Shown here: positions 43,482 to 51,756 of the stretch, piece by piece
How positions within the stretch are numbered: position 1 is the first letter of the stretch
Layout: every line of letters starts with the position of its first letter
Source of the DNA: Betaproteobacteria bacterium
Lineage (GTDB): Bacteria > Bdellovibrionota_B > Oligoflexia > Silvanigrellales > Silvanigrellaceae
Assembly (NCBI GenBank): GCA_016868315.1
Contig: VGHE01000013.1
Location: 1 to 64,000, forward strand
Reading direction: 5' to 3'
DNA: 64,000 nt
Notes under the pieces: model-generated
The model's input: only the letters and a program-made list of their open reading frames with translations
The model's database searches: none
What the model was told of the DNA's origin: nothing
Program-made: the position numbers and the translations under genes

Positions 43482-44582
43482 ATGGATTCGAAAAAGCCTG
43501 AGCGTTGGGTGAGAAAGGGTGTCAGACTTATGAAGCAGGGCGCGGAAACACCCCGGAATTGCTTAATCCTGGGCGGAGGCGCGCTCGGGCTCTTGTTGCA
43601 CTACAATTTGACTCATGCGTTTTCCGAAAACGGCAGCCCAACACGCAGAGTCACACACAGCAGAACAACCGTTCCAGAGCCCATACTGTTTGAGCAAGCA
43701 ACTGCGGAAGCTCTCCCATTTCAAGTGGAATACCACACAGGGTCTGCACAAAGTTGCCTAAAAATAATTGACCCTGAGTTGGTTTTTATTTGTGTTCCTC
43801 CGGAGAGCACAGAGGAAGTTTTGCACACCTGGCTTGCTGCAATGGAGACATGGGGGCAACCCAAAACTCAAGTTCAGATAATTTTTTGCAACAACGGCTG
43901 CCTAAGTCCAGCGACACTTGGCCGAATCCAGCAAGCACATTCACGATTTTCTTTCCTGCGCGCGCTCTTTTTTGTGGGAGCGATGCGCACTATACATGAA
44001 GATCATACCGTCATCCGCTGGACGGGTGGAACTCGTGTTGTTTGGGACTGGCTGCGGCCGCCGCTTGAACACCGGTCGACTGAATTGCCCAACTTTCTGA
44101 GTTGCCCTGCAGCCCTCGCCAGTGGTCAGTCAACTCGAACTGCGCCAGTCAAGAGTTCGGCTGCAACCCTGGGTTTTACAGAATGGATGCGCGAAACAAC
44201 TATCTTCGCTGCTGAACGGTGCAAATTCTTTACCAACTTCATGCTTGCCGCAGCCGTGGGTCCTCAACTCGCCAAAAACAAAACATTGTCAGAGCGTCTC
44301 GAAGACTCCATCGTTTCTCATCAGGCACAACAATTCGCCGTTTTGTGGGAGCATCATGGAGTGACTGCCGAACAGCTGAAATTGACCTTGATGTCGACCG
44401 TGGCCGACACGGGGGAAAACATCAACTCACTGAGCTATGCTGCTGTTCAGGGCAAGACCGGAACCATGGCGTGGTTTTTGCAAAGCCTGGAGGAAGACAT
44501 TCGACGCTCTCCTCGGCGTGCTAAACTTGAGCCGCTGATTTCGTTTCTGAGTTCCGTCCGCAAAAATTGGAGGATGGAATAA
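43482..44582 (+). CDS. Ketopantoate-reductase-like protein, divergent
   Basis: The N-terminal NAD(P) fold CLILGGGALGLLLHYNL and the later ELVFICVPPESTEEVLHTW resemble PanE/ApbA ketopantoate reductases, as does the C-terminal helical domain (CKFFTNFMLAAAVGPQL). The usual C-terminal SMxQDxxxGRxTEID signature reads NSLSYAAVQGKTGTMAW and lacks the acidic catalytic residue, so a canonical pantothenate role is doubtful. ATG 43482 has GAGGG eight bases upstream; ATG 43530 is an alternative. It heads the rhomboid/S8 operon, its stop overlapping the rhomboid start (TAATG). Confidence 0.68.
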   Translation: MDSKKPERWVRKGVRLMKQGAETPRNCLILGGGALGLLLHYNLTHAFSENGSPTRRVTHSRTTVPEPILFEQATAEALPFQVEYHTGSAQSCLKIIDPELVFICVPPESTEEVLHTWLAAMETWGQPKTQVQIIFCNNGCLSPATLGRIQQAHSRFSFLRALFFVGAMRTIHEDHTVIRWTGGTRVVWDWLRPPLEHRSTELPNFLSCPAALASGQSTRTAPVKSSAATLGFTEWMRETTIFAAERCKFFTNFMLAAAVGPQLAKNKTLSERLEDSIVSHQAQQFAVLWEHHGVTAEQLKLTLMSTVADTGENINSLSYAAVQGKTGTMAWFLQSLEEDIRRSPRRAKLEPLISFLSSVRKNWRME

Positions 44583-46033
44583 TGAACAGCGAACCATCAT
44601 CAGCCGATACTGCGGTCGGATACAAGCCTCCATTTCTGACTTTTGTTCTGATTGGCATCAATGCCTTCGTCTATTTAATGATTCAACTTCAAGGCGGACC
44701 AACCTACGAAAATCTGCTGCGCTACGGCGCTAAGGAAAATGGTCTAATTGCTGAAGGTGAAATTGGACGCCTGTTTTTTCCAATGTTCATGCATGCAAAT
44801 CCTGCACATATTCTTTTTAATATGTTTGCACTTTACCAATTCGGGAGAGTCTTTGAGGTTCTCACTGGCGCGAGAAATCTTTTTGTCACCTACATTCTGG
44901 GCGGACTTCTTGGAAATGCGGCGAGTTTCGTGCTCAGCAGTTCCCTTTCGGTTGGTGCATCGAGCAGTCTCTTCGCGCTTCTTTTTGCCCTCTATGTGCT
45001 GGAGCGCTACCAGCAGAAAATAAATCTCGAGAGCACAGGCATCAAAACCAGAACCTCGCTTGGTCCAGTCATTGTAATTAACGCGGTCATCACCTTTTTA
45101 ATTCCAAACATCGATTGGGCTTCCCACCTGGGTGGTAGTATTGCCGGAGTTCTCATCGGGCTGGGCATTGTCATGAAGCACAAAATGAACACCCGTCTGC
45201 TGGGCATGGTCAAATACTGGAGAGTCGATCCCTCAACGCTTCAGCTGCGCTTTTATCAGCGCGAAGGATTATACCTCGCGGTGGTTGGGACTTTAATTTT
45301 CGCTGCGTTTTTCAAAATACCGACCGTGAGCTTTGCCGATAGAGTTTTTGGTCTAGGTGTTCTTGAGGCCAGCAGTAATCCGACGACGGGTCACGCTGAA
45401 GCTGAGTTACCTCGTTATCGCTCGGCATTCGACGCACCTGAGTCTCCTGTCTATCCGGAGACACTTCTTCAACAGGCCATGGCAAATCTGGCCGCCGGAC
45501 GTTTCGACGCTGCCGAATCGATGTTCATTGTTCTCAAGCAACTCAATAAATTTGGGCTTGGAACAACTGAGTTTGCATCGCAGTCAACACACACACTGCT
45601 GGAAAAGGCTGAGGAGGCAGCACGCAGCCGTGAGCAGCTTGATGCGACTCTTGTTCAAGCATTGACCGACGAGAATACATCGGTTGCCGCACAACCAGGA
45701 TACTGTGATAGAGCGGCAGATTACGCTCGCTCCATAGGCTTTTATTCCATTTCTGGACTTTTGTACCGGTGTGCATTCTTCATGGATTTTGGCAACAAAA
45801 AATTTGCTCAATCAGCCATTGCGGACTTGTGGTTGGAGAGCAGTCGATGTGAAAAGAATCTTATTCTCACCTTTAGAAACAGCAACGCAGATGGTTTTGG
45901 TGACTTCCGTGTGCAACGTGAGTCGTGTTCCAACCACCTTGATGAATTCAGAGCGCAGCTCATTCAATTAGAAGGCCTCGGCTTTCTTACTAAGAATGGT
46001 GCTGTTCCAGAAAAAAAAGCATCTTTTAACTAA
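44582..46033 (+). CDS. Rhomboid intramembrane serine protease with periplasmic C-terminal domain
   Basis: Six rhomboid helices plus a seventh at about 230-245. HANPAHILFN (71-80) carries the conserved loop His and Asn80, GASSS (125-129) the catalytic Ser127, and SHLGG the catalytic His182. After TM7 come about 235 mostly soluble residues with two TPR-like helix pairs (YPETLLQQAMANLAAGRFDAAESMF) and four Cys (GYCDRA, YRCAFF, SRCEKN, ESCSNH) that suggest a disulfide-bonded periplasmic domain. ATG 44582 follows GGAGG. Its stop is 12 bases before the first S8 protease gene. It may cleave the S8 proteases' C-terminal helix (inference). Confidence 0.9.
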   Translation: MNSEPSSADTAVGYKPPFLTFVLIGINAFVYLMIQLQGGPTYENLLRYGAKENGLIAEGEIGRLFFPMFMHANPAHILFNMFALYQFGRVFEVLTGARNLFVTYILGGLLGNAASFVLSSSLSVGASSSLFALLFALYVLERYQQKINLESTGIKTRTSLGPVIVINAVITFLIPNIDWASHLGGSIAGVLIGLGIVMKHKMNTRLLGMVKYWRVDPSTLQLRFYQREGLYLAVVGTLIFAAFFKIPTVSFADRVFGLGVLEASSNPTTGHAEAELPRYRSAFDAPESPVYPETLLQQAMANLAAGRFDAAESMFIVLKQLNKFGLGTTEFASQSTHTLLEKAEEAARSREQLDATLVQALTDENTSVAAQPGYCDRAADYARSIGFYSISGLLYRCAFFMDFGNKKFAQSAIADLWLESSRCEKNLILTFRNSNADGFGDFRVQRESCSNHLDEFRAQLIQLEGLGFLTKNGAVPEKKASFN

Positions 46034-46045
46034 CTAAGGCAGACG

Positions 46046-48160
46046 ATGTTGATGAAGAGTATAAAATATTCAACGTTGTTTCAGAGCATCTTCATTGCGT
46101 TGGTGGTGTTTTTCGTTGGTTGTGGCCAGCAGGGTCTTGAGACTGGCATTCGCGCGAAAATTCCCGAGAAGAGTGTTCGCCTTCCGACCCCCGCCAACGT
46201 CGATGCGTGGTGGTCACAATGGGACAAGAAGACGTTTATTGTCGGCATGGTTGAACGCGAAGAGGTGTCGACCTCAGAAGCTCTTCTTCAAACGCGGCAG
46301 TTGCTCGCGGGGGCTTTGATTTCGTCAGTTTCAAACACCGATGGTCTTCGATCCGGGCAATCCCGCTTGGCTCTCGATGCTCTTGCCGGAGCCCTTGTCC
46401 TGGAGCGCCAAACACTCATTCCCGACCTTCCAGAAGTGGGATTGGAGCTTTCATCGAGTTCGCCGACCCCTCCGTCCAACCGGATTCAGGTGTCCCACTA
46501 TTTTGTTTCTGTGCCTTCTGTTGTGCAGGGTGCGGAAAAAGCATCTCAGTATGGTCTTGAGGGGTTGTTGCGCTTCAGCGACGCGCTGACGAAGCGTCAA
46601 GGTACGGCCGGGTTGCTGCAAGCTCTGGCGCGTGCACGGGGAGTTGAATGGGTAGAACCTAATTTGGTTGGTTACTTGCGTTCACAGAGAAGGCCTGGTG
46701 CGGAACAAGCCGGCGCACTCGGAATTGCGCCCGAGTTCAAATACAACACGTCAATTGTTTCAGTGCTCAAGAGAATTCGCGCCGACACAGCCTACTCTTA
46801 TGTTGAGCGAACCAAGCCAAAGCTCTCTTCGGTCACGGTGGCCATCCTCGATACCGGTGTTGACTCCGATCATCCTGAACTCAAAGACCAGATGTTCGTG
46901 AATCCTGGGGAAACCAAGGATGGATTAGACAACGATAACAATTGTTACGTCGATGACATTTTTGGAATTGATGCCACGCTTGAGTGTGGCCGCGATGATG
47001 GCGTTGTTCCGCGACCCGGTCATGCTGATTTAGGTGGATCCGGTAAGCAGTGTCCACGCACGCGTGCCGACGATGAGCTGTCTGCAAACTGTGGCCACGG
47101 TAGCCATGTTGCGGGAATTGTTGCAGCCAAACATGGTGGAGATCTCAGTACCATTGGTGTTTGTCCGAGCTGTAAGATTCTCTCTGTTCGTGTAGCCGAG
47201 CGCTGCGTGCAGCCCGACACCAATCAAGCTGGAGAATGTCGGCGACCCATGACCGCATTTGACCCGCTCACCTCGTATGAGGTCGACGGTGGAATTTCAG
47301 ATGCTTCTCAGGTGCGAGCTCTGGCTTATCTTTACAATCTGCGCGCTCCTGACAATCGGAATCGTTTGCTTGTCAATGTGGTCAATCTGAGTCTTGGTAA
47401 GTATTTTGCATCGCGCTCAATGAGTTACATTATTCGCAATCTGCAGCGCAAAAATATTATTGTGGTAGCAGCAGCCGGCAACGACGGAACTGAGACCCCG
47501 AGCTATCCTGCTGCTTACGACAGTGTGGTTGCTGTTTGTGCCACCAGCGAGGACTATGCAAAGGGCGTCTACGGCCGCGCACCCTTTAGCAACTTCGGCG
47601 ACTGGGTCGATATTTGCGCTCCGGGAACTGACATAGTTTCGACCACGCCGGGAAAAACCTTCGATGGCGGCGGGCTTTTCGTAGACAAGAGTGGAACAAG
47701 TCAGGCAACGCCCTTTGTTGCAGGTGCGCTTGGTTATCTGCTTTCTTATTATGGCAACGATAAGAGTGCTCCGCAGATCGTAGAGATGCTCAAGGACGCT
47801 GCTGATTCTGAATCACTTTATAATTCACCGAGCAATCGCGTGCCGGGAACGGGTGAGAGACTTTACCGTGCGTGCTACACGGATACCTCCAACTGCGACA
47901 ATCTTCTCGGATCTGGTTTTCTTGACCTCGATGCTGCGCTTCAGGGAAGGAAGCAAAGCAAAACAAATTTTGACTATCTCTCCAATCAACCGGGAGGCTG
48001 TATTGTGAGCTCGGCTGCAGCGCTGCACTCACGCTCGTTCAGTGATCAGCTCTTGTGGTTTCTCACCAGCATGCCAGCTCTTTTGGCTCTGGCTTATATG
48101 ATTTTGCTTGTCCTCCGTTGGACATCTCGCAGAAAAATATCCGGGAGAACGAGACAATGA
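46046..48160 (+). CDS. Subtilisin-like (S8) protease lipoprotein with C-terminal sorting-like tail (paralogue A)
   Basis: Signal peptide with lipobox FVGC (Cys26). A prodomain-like region ends GVEWVEPNL (199-207), the end of an I9-type inhibitor. The catalytic triad is Asp269 (AILDTGVD), His351 (CGHGSHVAG) and Ser552 (SGTSQATP), with oxyanion Asn479 (AAAGND). Many Cys are in the catalytic domain. The C-terminus (650-704) has GGCIVSS, a spacer, LTSMP, a TM helix (about 670-690) and the basic RRK, resembling GlyGly-CTERM or MYXO-CTERM tails. Its stop overlaps the next gene (ATGA). The closest relative in the window is the next gene. Anchored at both ends until processed (inference). Confidence 0.9.
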   Translation: MLMKSIKYSTLFQSIFIALVVFFVGCGQQGLETGIRAKIPEKSVRLPTPANVDAWWSQWDKKTFIVGMVEREEVSTSEALLQTRQLLAGALISSVSNTDGLRSGQSRLALDALAGALVLERQTLIPDLPEVGLELSSSSPTPPSNRIQVSHYFVSVPSVVQGAEKASQYGLEGLLRFSDALTKRQGTAGLLQALARARGVEWVEPNLVGYLRSQRRPGAEQAGALGIAPEFKYNTSIVSVLKRIRADTAYSYVERTKPKLSSVTVAILDTGVDSDHPELKDQMFVNPGETKDGLDNDNNCYVDDIFGIDATLECGRDDGVVPRPGHADLGGSGKQCPRTRADDELSANCGHGSHVAGIVAAKHGGDLSTIGVCPSCKILSVRVAERCVQPDTNQAGECRRPMTAFDPLTSYEVDGGISDASQVRALAYLYNLRAPDNRNRLLVNVVNLSLGKYFASRSMSYIIRNLQRKNIIVVAAAGNDGTETPSYPAAYDSVVAVCATSEDYAKGVYGRAPFSNFGDWVDICAPGTDIVSTTPGKTFDGGGLFVDKSGTSQATPFVAGALGYLLSYYGNDKSAPQIVEMLKDAADSESLYNSPSNRVPGTGERLYRACYTDTSNCDNLLGSGFLDLDAALQGRKQSKTNFDYLSNQPGGCIVSSAAALHSRSFSDQLLWFLTSMPALLALAYMILLVLRWTSRRKISGRTRQ

Positions 48161-50253
48161 ACGTCTTTAAATATTTTTTAGCATCTCTCGTTTTTGCATT
48201 GCCTTCCTGCGGAGATAAAAAATCTGAATACGAGGTGTACCAGAAGGTCAGCGGAGTGACCTGGCCAACGCTGGAAAATCCTACTGCGTGGCGAAAGCTT
48301 TGGGATGGTAGGTCTTGGATTGTTGCACTTTCGCGTGACTATCAACAATTAAAGAGCCGTGAGAGGTTGCGCGATCAGCTTGCTTTTTCACTTGTGCGCA
48401 CTCTGCAGGAGAGAGACCCTGCATTTGTTGTGAGTGCAGATTTTCACGCACGTGCTGCACAACTCATTAATGCGCATGTGGTTGACATCCGTAACATGGA
48501 GCAGACCTTGAGTTCGGGGCACGCACCGATGCCTGTCTTCGGATTCGGCACGCTCTCGCTCCGTGGAGGATCCGCTGGCCTGGAGCAATTGTTGATGGCC
48601 AGCGAGTTTCTTGGAAGTCAGTTGCGCGGGCTAGAAGCCGAGGTCAGGAATAACTACCTTCTCGAATTCATGTGGTCTTCACTCGAGAGAACACCTGGGG
48701 TTGAGTTTGCCGAGCCCGACTTGGAGAGCCAGACTCAGGCCACGCCTGCTGAGATTCAGACCTTTCTGAAGAATCAGTGGAATACAAATGTGATTGGTGT
48801 TGCTGAACTTGCTCCACTCATGGCTCAGAGCGGACAGTCTGTTGTGGCAATCATCGACACAGGTGTAGACAACGCGCTCGATGCAGCCGGTTCGCCGCTG
48901 GATGGGCGTTTCTTCAAGAATCCGGGCGAAGATCCTGCACGTGGAAAAAGTGAGGGTTCCGACGACGATGGCAACGGTTGGGTCGATGACTTCATGGGTA
49001 TTGACGCAACGATTCCCAAAGGTGAAGTCGACAGAAGTCCTGCTCCACGGCCAGGTTCCAACGATGTTGGCGGCAAGGGCGCCCGGTGTGATGACACGGG
49101 CGCAAAGAATGCATCAAGCTGTGGCCACGGCACGCACGTTGCTGGGATTGTTGCTGGATACGGACCTGCTGGTGCATTTCCATATGCGGGTGTGTGCCCG
49201 TTAAATTGCCAAATTCTCCCTATCCGTGCAGCGCGCCGTTGCTTTGGTCCAAAGAGTCAACCCGATGCTCTCTGCCAGCCGGCAGAGGAGGCGGGTGCCT
49301 TTAATCCCGAGCAGCAGCGTGAGTTTGACGGCGGAATCACGGATTCTTCGCAGCTGCGGGCACTGGCCTATATTCTTGATTTGGAGTCACCCTCGAGTCC
49401 GGGTCGCCTGGCCACCAACGTGGTGAACCTCAGCATCGGTAAGTATTTTTCAAGTCGCTCGTTGTCGCTCATTTCGAGACGTTTGATTCAAAACGATGTG
49501 TTAATGGTCGCAGCAGCAGGTAATCAGAACGTTGAGGTTCCGATGTTCCCTGCTGCCTACCGTGATGTTATTGCGGTGTGCGCAACGAGTAAGGCTCCTG
49601 GCGAGCAAGAGCCCACGGGAAGTAGTGACCCTACCAAGGGTGCTGCCGGTTCTCGTGGCGAACGATTTAAGGCGCGCTACAGCAACTTTGGTGACTGGGT
49701 AGACATCTGTGCCCCAGGCACACGAATAATTGCTTCAGTTCCGGGTGGAGATACGGATTTTAAGAGTGGAACGAGTCAGGCGTCGCCGCATGTTTCGGGC
49801 ATCGCTGGGCTCATTAAGGCGCTGCGTCCGAGCCTTTCAGCCCTCGAGATTCGTTCGCTTCTCATCAAGTATTCTGATTTTGATTTTCTCTACGGTTTGT
49901 TGGCCAACGGTCGGCGCGTGAACGCTGATTTTGAATACTCACCCTATCCGGACATCAAGGTTTTTCTTCTGGGCGCAGGGGAGTTGAGCGCATCAAATAT
50001 CTTTTTCGCACTCACCGATCCGAGTAAAGCGCGTCTGAGTCAGGCGAGCTCCGCAATTGAATCTGGAGATACCAGCCAAGTGAAGGAGGGCTGTATCGTG
50101 TCGAGTCTTGCGGCAAATCATCCTCTCAAGACTCTCGAGCGCACCACAAGCATGCCTTTCATGTTATTGCTTTCGTATGCCATTTTCTTCCTCTTTCGGG
50201 TTTCTAGGCGCAAAAAAAAGTCCGGCGGGCTGCCGGACTCTCCTCATGAATGA
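48157..50253 (+). CDS. Subtilisin-like (S8) protease lipoprotein with C-terminal sorting-like tail (paralogue B)
   Basis: ATG 48157, with GGGAG nine bases upstream and an ATGA overlap. Lipobox LPSC (Cys18). The prodomain ends GVEFAEPDL (181-189). The triad is Asp234 (IIDTGVD), His324 (CGHGTHVAG) and Ser540 (SGTSQASP), with Asn456 (AAAGNQ). An insertion before the FKARYSNFGDWVDICAPG block (EQEPTGSSDPTKG) distinguishes it from paralogue A. The tail is EGCIVSS (644-650), TTSMP, a TM helix of about 16 residues, then the basic SRRKKKS and 10 extra residues. The AAA codons of the basic stretch double as the antisense T run of a terminator for the facing gene. Confidence 0.9.
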   Translation: MNVFKYFLASLVFALPSCGDKKSEYEVYQKVSGVTWPTLENPTAWRKLWDGRSWIVALSRDYQQLKSRERLRDQLAFSLVRTLQERDPAFVVSADFHARAAQLINAHVVDIRNMEQTLSSGHAPMPVFGFGTLSLRGGSAGLEQLLMASEFLGSQLRGLEAEVRNNYLLEFMWSSLERTPGVEFAEPDLESQTQATPAEIQTFLKNQWNTNVIGVAELAPLMAQSGQSVVAIIDTGVDNALDAAGSPLDGRFFKNPGEDPARGKSEGSDDDGNGWVDDFMGIDATIPKGEVDRSPAPRPGSNDVGGKGARCDDTGAKNASSCGHGTHVAGIVAGYGPAGAFPYAGVCPLNCQILPIRAARRCFGPKSQPDALCQPAEEAGAFNPEQQREFDGGITDSSQLRALAYILDLESPSSPGRLATNVVNLSIGKYFSSRSLSLISRRLIQNDVLMVAAAGNQNVEVPMFPAAYRDVIAVCATSKAPGEQEPTGSSDPTKGAAGSRGERFKARYSNFGDWVDICAPGTRIIASVPGGDTDFKSGTSQASPHVSGIAGLIKALRPSLSALEIRSLLIKYSDFDFLYGLLANGRRVNADFEYSPYPDIKVFLLGAGELSASNIFFALTDPSKARLSQASSAIESGDTSQVKEGCIVSSLAANHPLKTLERTTSMPFMLLLSYAIFFLFRVSRRKKKSGGLPDSPHE
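50212..50239 (-). terminator. Minus-strand intrinsic terminator inside the end of an S8 protease gene
   Basis: AGTCCGGC/GCCGGACT with a 5-base loop, followed on the minus strand by eight T. It serves the short HPF-like gene (stop at 50274) and is embedded in the coding sequence for the S8 protease basic tail. Confidence 0.8.
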
Positions 50254-50273: not shown

Positions 50274-50597
50274 TCAACTTGCCTGAGCAATGCCTTTCAC
50301 AGGCTTGTGATGATCATAGCGCTTGCTGTGCGCCTTTTTAATTTGCTCCATCGCACGACGGGTCGCCCCATGAATGCTGTGATACATATCGGGCGAACGT
50401 ATTGTCACGTCACCATGAAATGGACCATCGTTCCAGGTCAGGTGTACAACGTGGTCATTGCCTTCCAGCGACAAAGCCCAGCGGCTCCCGAAGTTGTGAA
50501 GTGCAAGTGGCTTCAACTTTTCTGTTGATTCTGCCTCGCAGCACTCGCGCAACGCTTGGGTTAATTCAAAACCATGAGCCGCAACCTGATTCGCCAT
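50274..50597 (-). CDS. Short HPF-like (S30AE-related) protein
   Basis: 107 residues. The sequence follows E. coli HPF in two places: HGFELTQALRECCEAESTEKLKP versus the HPF start (EITEALR..), and SPDMYHSIHGATRRAMEQIKKAHSKRYDHH versus HPF's DMYAAIDGLIDKLARQLTKHK. The middle strands are compatible (SLEGNDHVVHLTW). It is therefore probably a divergent ribosome hibernation factor or a derivative that binds elsewhere. ATG 50597 is fixed by AAAAGGAG. Last gene of a three-gene operon, 13 bases after the PATAN gene. Confidence 0.72.
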   Translation of the reverse strand: MANQVAAHGFELTQALRECCEAESTEKLKPLALHNFGSRWALSLEGNDHVVHLTWNDGPFHGDVTIRSPDMYHSIHGATRRAMEQIKKAHSKRYDHHKPVKGIAQAS

Positions 50598-50610
50598 GAG
50601 AAACTCCTTT

Positions 50611-51756
50611 TTAGGAAATTGCTTCAGCCACTCGCGAAAAGTACGAACCTCTCGTACTGACCAATTCGGCATGAATTCTTCTTGCGTCCTCCTCAAATCC
50701 TCGGTTGTTTGAGAGTTCAAAGAGTAAATACAGTAAAGCTTTGTGCAGACCCTCCTGAACGAGTGTAACAACGGAGACAGGCCAACGGTTTGCCATTGAG
50801 CCTCTCGCCCGCAATTTGAAATCGCGGTTCAGTGCAATCACTTTGTGGAGTTGTTGAATGACGAAACCGTGGTTTGGAATCAGTTGGACACCTGCACCAA
50901 ATTCAGATTCGAGGATTCGAATCGCTCTGTTCACTGCCACGTCCCATCCGGTCAGATTCTTCTCGATGAAGACAGCTTCCATCAACAAAAATACCTTGTT
51001 GGCGGAGCCCACGACCTCTTGAAGCTCATTTTCGGCGGCCTTCGGTAGATCTTGAGCATGAAGATTCCAAGTGTCCACAATGATTCCCATTGCGTACATT
51101 TTGAAGATCGCTTTGAGTGTATAAATTTTCGACAATCGGCTCTTCTCGTCGATAATTGTTGTGAAGTCTTTGTGCTGCTCCACGAGGGTCAACATGTCTT
51201 TTAGAAAATCTGTTTTTGCGAGTGGTCGAGCGCGTTCATCGATTTTTAGCGCCGGTGACTGGCGTGCAGCAGCCTCGAACAGGCGGATGTGGCGATTATC
51301 CTCTTCACATTCATCGAGGGTTTGATCCCAGCGAAAGCGCAGACCCAAGTCGGGTGTTTTCAATTTTTCGATGCCGCTGACTTCAATATCCAAAGTGGGG
51401 TAGAGCGAGAGCGAAGTGAGAATTTCTTTCGACTGAAGAACAAGTGCCTCCCACAGGTCGGTCATGTTGAGTAAGCCCGTCTGAACCAGCAAGTCTCCAA
51501 ATCGGAATCTCTCGTTGACCTTGCCCGCAAGCTCAACGAACAGGTCAAGAGAGATTCTTCCCTCACGGTAGATCACATCACCAAGGCGATCATCAAGCAG
51601 GTTTGAATTGCAATGAGTGATCTCTCCGCCCTGCAGGAAGACGTTTTTCTGTCCCTCCGAGCAGGAGAATTTTACCGATCCGGTAAAGTGCATTGTCCTT
51701 AGGTCGAGGAGAAAATCCCTCAACATTCTTCCGTCAATAGTGGTTCGCTGATTCAT
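50611..51756 (-). CDS. DUF4388 (PATAN-domain) protein
   Basis: Starts with a DUF4388/PATAN region (about 1-150: LRDFLLDLRTMHFTGSVKFSCSEGQKNVFLQGGEITHCNS, then RFGDLLVQTGLLNMTDLWEALVLQ), a domain common in deltaproteobacterial and cyanobacterial signalling proteins. The rest (about 160-381) is helical with no motif I recognise. Cytoplasmic. The ATG overlaps the stop of the upstream receiver-TPR gene as ATGA, so the two are translationally coupled and probably work together, perhaps in gliding, polarity or phosphorelay control (inference). Confidence 0.8.
   Translation of the reverse strand: MNQRTTIDGRMLRDFLLDLRTMHFTGSVKFSCSEGQKNVFLQGGEITHCNSNLLDDRLGDVIYREGRISLDLFVELAGKVNERFRFGDLLVQTGLLNMTDLWEALVLQSKEILTSLSLYPTLDIEVSGIEKLKTPDLGLRFRWDQTLDECEEDNRHIRLFEAAARQSPALKIDERARPLAKTDFLKDMLTLVEQHKDFTTIIDEKSRLSKIYTLKAIFKMYAMGIIVDTWNLHAQDLPKAAENELQEVVGSANKVFLLMEAVFIEKNLTGWDVAVNRAIRILESEFGAGVQLIPNHGFVIQQLHKVIALNRDFKLRARGSMANRWPVSVVTLVQEGLHKALLYLLFELSNNRGFEEDARRIHAELVSTRGSYFSRVAEAIS

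Follow-up and report, generated by a model that had tools for sequence, protein, structure and literature searches.

Adjacent genes for a rhomboid protease and two subtilases with a common C-terminal tail suggest a candidate maturation system in Silvanigrellaceae

Genes encoding a rhomboid protease and two subtilases

We analysed a 64,000-nucleotide stretch of DNA (referred to as the window; contig VGHE01000013.1, positions 1 to 64,000, forward strand) from a 3.2 Mb draft genome (GCA_016868315.1) that GTDB places in the family Silvanigrellaceae. The subject is a rhomboid protease gene followed by two genes for proteases of peptidase family S8 (subtilases), here called S8a and S8b. The stop codon of the rhomboid gene lies 12 bases from the start of S8a, the S8a and S8b genes overlap in the sequence ATGA, and the three genes probably form an operon (Table 1). 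A preliminary description, made from the sequence of the window, had proposed that the two S8 proteases share a sorting-like C-terminal tail and that the rhomboid forms with them a small dedicated processing system.

The rhomboid matched the Pfam model PF01694 with 101.7 bits (cut-off 22.6), and its catalytic Ser and His are both conserved, which bears out the earlier statement that a catalytically complete rhomboid is encoded beside S8a. In the protein, a GlpG-like core spanning about residues 18-205 is followed by a seventh helix (residues 228-248) and an all-helical C-terminal extension that is predicted to be periplasmic. An AlphaFold2 model, with a predicted local distance difference test score (pLDDT) of 82, fits GlpG structures with a template modelling score (TM-score) on target of 0.65-0.77. 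With the rhombosortase model TIGR03902 the score was 26.9 bits, below the curated cut-off of 84, and the scores with GlpG models were higher than with the rhombosortase model, yet the protein fell far below the curated cut-offs of both. Therefore, it belongs to neither of these named subfamilies. The extension, which had been described as unusual, is indeed long and helical, but it is not unique, as the rhomboid YqgP (GluP) of Bacillus subtilis has an extracellular C-terminal TPR domain (PMC7231995). Its four Cys residues are present as described, but only C375 and C397 are invariant in the family.

The closest matches of the rhomboid among the sequences of solved structures are human iRhom1 and iRhom2, and not GlpG. 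The top structure matches are likewise iRhom1/2, in complexes with ADAM17; because GlpG structures fit the core equally well, this ranking probably reflects similarity of the core only.

The D, H and S motifs of peptidase family S8 are invariant in five aligned members. The signal peptides of both S8 proteases end in a lipobox Cys, as in lipoproteins, and acylation of this residue is predicted. The region that follows reads WIVAL ... FGTLSL ... TPGVEFAEPD, and the order of these motifs and the terminal VEFAEPD are propeptide-like, so that this region is, as far as motifs can tell, probably a subtilase propeptide. No Pfam or PDB match was found for this domain of S8b, including none to an inhibitor or propeptide (I9-type) model, and the structure model of S8b, based on five sequences, had a pLDDT of 40, too low for the propeptide or disulfides to be checked in three dimensions.

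In the S8 alignment the lipobox Cys is invariant (9/9), as is a Cys in the tail (10/10). The Cys pairs 362/373 and 596/602 are gained or lost jointly, small alignment exceptions aside, and the other conserved Cys residues (311, 322, 347, 351, 475 and 518) are even in number, leaving the tail Cys as the only Cys of the mature protein that has no partner. A structural disulfide involving the tail Cys was considered and rejected as unlikely, because this residue is the odd one out among Cys that come and go in pairs. About a dozen further S8-like stretches are present in the window's genome, and only general S8 relatives were found in viral contigs and plasmids.

Table 1. Coordinates of genes and sequence features; a slash marks the Gly-Cys bond of the tail.
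Feature	Position	Strand	Remarks
Rhomboid protease, 483 aa	44582..46033	+	Pfam Rhomboid E 5e-29; orthologue in 13/14 family genomes
Catalytic Ser127 of rhomboid (GASS)	44960..44962	+	Invariant in eight intact family members aligned
Catalytic His182 of rhomboid (WASHLGG)	45125..45127	+	Invariant in eight intact family members aligned
S8a subtilase, 704 aa	46046..48160	+	Pfam Peptidase_S8 E 7e-38
S8a lipobox Cys26	46121..46123	+	Cys at this signal-peptide position in 9/9 homologues covering it
S8a tail: PGG/C-IVSS, spacer, TSMP, TM, SRRK	47996..48157	+	Gly/Cys between 47998 and 47999; Pro 48074-48076
S8b subtilase, 698 aa, 4-base overlap with S8a	48157..50253	+	Pfam Peptidase_S8 E 1e-28
S8b lipobox Cys18	48208..48210	+	Cys at this signal-peptide position in 9/9 homologues covering it
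S8b N-terminal domain, probable subtilase propeptide	48259..48768	+	Motif reading only: WIVAL...FGTLSL...LERTPGVEFAEPDLE
S8b tail: QVKEG/C-IVSS, spacer, TSMP, TM, SRRKKK	50089..50250	+	Gly/Cys between 50091 and 50092; Pro 50155-50157
Weakly PanE/ApbA-like gene upstream, probable operon member	about 43509..44582	+	Pfam ApbA only E 0.075
S30AE-family gene (ribosome hibernation factor-like)	50274-50771		Convergent; borders locus
T9 run in rhomboid gene of genus g5	L046:10069 (G006); L047:9980 (G011); L048:10202 (G010); L049:11482 (G009); L050:10052 (G008)		

The common C-terminal tail

Both S8 proteases of the window end, as first described, in GCIVSS, a spacer, TSMP, one transmembrane (TM) segment and RRK. 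This strict wording holds in the window but not across relatives, in which the general form of the tail is GC[IVL][VAI][SNG][ST], a spacer (16-21 residues counted from the tail Cys), [TAS][SG][MLVA]P, one TM helix and an Arg/Lys-rich end. As judged from sequence profiles, the likeness of the tails exceeds chance: a profile made from tails of genus g1 matched tails of genera g2 and g3 at E 2e-8 to 5e-6, profiles from genera g2-g4 matched the b-type tails of g1 at E 5e-7 to 1e-4, and a profile of only the b-type tails of the window's genus reached E about 1e-5 both with the a-type tail of the window and with tails from two further genera. Cross-validated profiles recovered most of the tails.

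The tail had been thought to be under constraint, and the S8 alignment agrees with this, the majority share being 0.69 and 0.61 in the two motif blocks compared with 0.46 before, 0.32 between and 0.40 after them. The extramembrane GC[IVL]VSS block is the best-conserved part of the tail, and the TM helix drifts. Gene conversion between S8a and S8b was rejected as the cause of the common tails, because b-type tails across species are more alike than the b-type and a-type tails within one genome.

The tail is not represented by any Pfam or NCBIfam model, so that the earlier view of it as undescribed under the known tail families stands. None of ten tails matched GlyGly-CTERM (TIGR03501) or the other NCBIfam tail models, and MYXO-CTERM (TIGR03901) had no match on the tails and none in the window's genome at an E value of 1. 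The rhomboid and its neighbours are therefore placed outside the rhombosortase/GlyGly-CTERM and MYXO-CTERM families, the models of which they do not match.

Distribution of the tail and the rhomboid

A set of 58 genomes of the phylum was searched with profiles built from 2 and from 10 tails. Eleven strong tails were found, all in six genomes (G000-G005) of four genera in one family, a group of little-known aquatic bacteria related to Silvanigrella. Ten belong to S8 proteases that are homologues of the window's pair, with one or two such proteases known per genome, and the eleventh is a fragment that lies at the end of a contig. Further matches were partial and near chance. The preliminary description had looked to a genome search for more substrates, and this gave no further convincing tail in the window's genome, nor any tail client in the family, class or phylum beyond the homologous S8 proteases and the contig-end fragment. 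This fragment (G005:C678; L164, from about 3203) lies convergent to an S30AE gene and a DUF4388-like gene, an arrangement also seen in the window, and represents either a further tail-bearing S8 protease in G005 or the missing end of a known one.

The rhomboid was found in 13 of the 14 genomes of the family (the one that lacks it is 72% complete) and in all six that carry the tail; a tail without the rhomboid, which had been named beforehand as the contrary case, was thus seen in none of the six. The rhomboid and S8 genes are adjacent in G000, G001 and G003, and apparently also in G002 across two abutting contigs; in G005 the locus is cut by contig ends. They are unlinked in G004, in which the S8 gene lies near an S30AE gene and the rhomboid gene lies by prmA on another contig. 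These flanks suggest that the ancestral locus probably held both genes, and the split in G004 looks like a later rearrangement. A secretin of the type II secretion system is encoded in 14 of 14 family genomes.

A possible maturation switch

The best-supported reading of the gene order, the intact catalytic residues, the architecture and conservation of the tail, its restriction to these S8 proteases and the fact that all genomes with the tail also encode the rhomboid is, in our analysis, that the rhomboid and the tail would act as a maturation switch for secreted S8 proteases, working like a rhombosortase and its target; we regard this as evenly balanced between right and wrong. In single-target rhombosortase systems the rhomboid and its target are adjacent in 16 of 21 genomes (PMC3237569), and the adjacency seen here supports the reading because it follows this published pattern. 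The type II secretin encoded throughout the family and the unpaired tail Cys, which makes a disulfide role of the motif unlikely, also count in its favour.

The nearest known counterpart comes from Vibrio cholerae: the zymogen of the secreted serine protease VesB is anchored in the inner membrane through a C-terminal helix, is cut before this helix by rhombosortase (RssP) or GlpG, and is then activated by removal of its propeptide (PMC11389362). Both systems combine a rhomboid with a secreted serine protease that has a tripartite tail and, probably in the present case, a propeptide. They differ in that the motif is GC[IVL]VSS here as opposed to SGGS in GlyGly-CTERM proteins, with a longer spacer, and in that the S8 proteases add a lipobox and are, with one or two per genome, the only candidate substrates. 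VesB and HybA are known C-terminally anchored rhomboid substrates; HybA is periplasmic, has a single TM helix at its C-terminus and is cut by GlpG/Rhom7 in Shigella (as cited in PMC11389362). The S8 tail shares the topology of such substrates. HybA is cut within its helix region in a quality control role, and it is not known to have a conserved extramembrane signature.

On this reading, the S8 protease would be synthesized in precursor form, exported through Sec and tethered to the inner membrane at both ends: at its N-terminal Cys through a lipid, and at the other end through its C-terminal helix, the Arg/Lys end of which would remain cytoplasmic. The rhomboid would cleave the tail from the periplasm, with the invariant Gly-Cys bond or its vicinity as the most likely site, as rhombosortase or GlpG does on VesB, and the subtilase would probably remove its own lipid-bearing propeptide. 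If the N-terminal region is a propeptide, the lipid would depart with it and the catalytic domain would have no lasting tether other than the tail, so that the tail cut would set the time at which the active enzyme is freed from the inner membrane, to go to the periplasm, the outer membrane or the outside. The lipid anchor that had been proposed to remain after tail cleavage is doubtful, because the lipobox sits on this apparently cleavable propeptide.

A candidate cut site can be proposed from EcGlpG, which prefers a small residue at P1 and bulky residues at P4 and P2' (PMC11389362). Sites of this type, V-x-x-G/C-[IVL] or L-P-G-G/C-V, are present at the invariant Gly-Cys bond in 7 of 10 tails, that of S8b included, compared with 2.4% per position over the S8 proteins. 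The remaining three, all a-type, read Q-P-G-G/C-[IV] and resemble the SGG/S of GlyGly-CTERM.

Several observations weigh against a maturation switch. Seven near-complete genomes of genus g5 (named members Fluviispira multicolorata and Spirobacillus cienkowskii) carry the rhomboid with its long extension and have neither the tail nor a homologous S8 protease; in the five of them tested the rhomboid is under purifying selection. At the g5 locus a convergent S30AE gene directly follows the rhomboid gene and the S8 genes are missing, and a tree of the rhomboid did not resolve loss of S8 in g5 from gain in the other genera. A second tail-bearing S8 gene in G003 (G003:C106; L162:5466-7745) is unlinked, the 14 kb read there containing nothing related to the window's rhomboid, and the window's genome encodes two additional rhomboids and two CPBP proteases. 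As to the cut site, the three a-type tails have Gln and not a bulky hydrophobic residue at P4. Five other alignment columns, in the signal peptide, N-terminal domain and catalytic region, also show a GlpG-type site in 60% or more of the sequences; since the Gly-Cys column is one of six, its match is suggestive only. The distance from the Gly-Cys bond to the TM proline, 20-25 residues, is also long compared with VesB, in which the RssP and GlpG sites are only a few residues away.

Of the two marks expected of a dedicated pair, adjacency is found and a shared distribution is not. Because relatives keep the rhomboid without the tail or a homologous S8 protease, it is not strictly dedicated to these proteases and must have at least one other role. 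The system of the preliminary description therefore survives in its tail, its adjacent rhomboid and their co-occurrence, but not in an exclusive partnership, and its residual lipid anchor is doubtful.

Alternative explanations

It is possible, although we consider it doubtful, that the tail is a permanent inner-membrane anchor for the S8 proteases and is not cut, the rhomboid serving in membrane protein quality control like YqgP or GlpG. This explanation needs no cognate protease and accommodates the rhomboid of g5, which occurs without the tail. The helical extension also resembles in kind the TPR domain of YqgP, which takes part in quality control of the transporter MgtE, and Bacillus rhomboids were retrieved by a query with the window's rhomboid. 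YqgP differs in having an N-terminal metal-binding domain and in cutting MgtE, and no tail-bearing protease has been reported beside it. A permanent anchor leaves unexplained why an extramembrane GC[IVL]VSS block is conserved so far ahead of a drifting helix, as well as the unpaired invariant Cys and the conserved adjacency of the genes.

A rather unlikely proposal, made here only tentatively, is that the GC[IVL]VSS tail is a new class of C-terminal sorting signal that would be read by a GlpG-like rhomboid some 20 residues outside the membrane, making up a small sortase-like system for lipoprotein subtilases that is distinct from rhombosortase and myxosortase.

Improbable in our view is a Cys sorting signal of the MYXO-CTERM kind, in which the tail Cys would carry a lipid and the helix would be removed by a different enzyme, for example a CPBP protease, with the rhomboid as bystander or helper. 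Like MYXO-CTERM, the S8 tail has Gly followed by an invariant Cys, a TM helix and a basic end; in Myxococcus xanthus the CPBP protease MrtX requires the motif Cys, and the protein is set free from the inner membrane when its tail is removed (PMC11980579). In favour, too, CPBP proteins are encoded in all family genomes, with two in that of the window. An invariant, unpaired Cys would allow lipidation but does not show it. MrtX is a glutamic protease and not a rhomboid, and has dozens of clients compared with the one or two here. The lack of MYXO-CTERM matches in the genome and on the tails speaks against this explanation, and the separation of the Cys from the helix is long for a lipidated Cys that needs the membrane next to the helix. 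The locus has no CPBP gene, CPBP proteins are found equally in the tail-less genomes of g5, and none with a distribution that follows the tail was evident in the family.

The iRhoms lack a catalytic dyad and are chaperone or trafficking partners of ADAM17. That the rhomboid is such a partner of the S8 proteases and not their protease is very improbable, for although its best matches are iRhoms in ADAM17 complexes and it is co-encoded with the S8 proteases, its Ser127 and His182 are invariant and GlpG structures fit its core equally well.

To our knowledge, natural substrates have been identified for very few bacterial rhomboids, and the present locus provides a likely one, encoded beside the enzyme and bearing a short conserved signature. 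If the maturation switch operates, a rhomboid outside the rhombosortase subfamily would join those that control secreted proteases, and a general-use rhomboid would be seen to have acquired a tailored client in one lineage.

Neighbouring genes and a frame change in the rhomboid gene

In the window, the weakly PanE/ApbA-like gene abuts the rhomboid gene, and the loci read in G002 and G005 have, upstream of the rhomboid gene, an open reading frame whose start is similarly of the dinucleotide-fold kind. S8b is followed by the S30AE-family gene and a DUF4388-like gene. In nearly every family genome seen, with or without S8 genes, the S30AE gene flanks the locus and so marks the position of the S8 pair.

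A -1 frame change splits the rhomboid gene of five g5 genomes, including that of Spirobacillus cienkowskii, at one site, CGTTTTTTTTTCC, which contains nine T (the slippery sequence T TTT TTC) just before the HANLVHL motif; the sequences of G009 and G010 are near-identical here, so that four independent lineages are represented. The two g5 genomes without T9 have an intact rhomboid gene. Runs of nine or more T are uncommon in these regions of g5 (one to three per 19.5 kb region). A literature search found no mention of this frame change, nor does the paper on the Spirobacillus genome contain one. Purifying selection acts on both pieces, with dN/dS of 0.10-0.39, synonymous sites being near saturation between most species pairs. 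To judge from the sequences, the split looks like conserved recoding of an intramembrane protease gene, likely by programmed -1 frameshifting (U UUU UUC) or by transcriptional slippage at T9.

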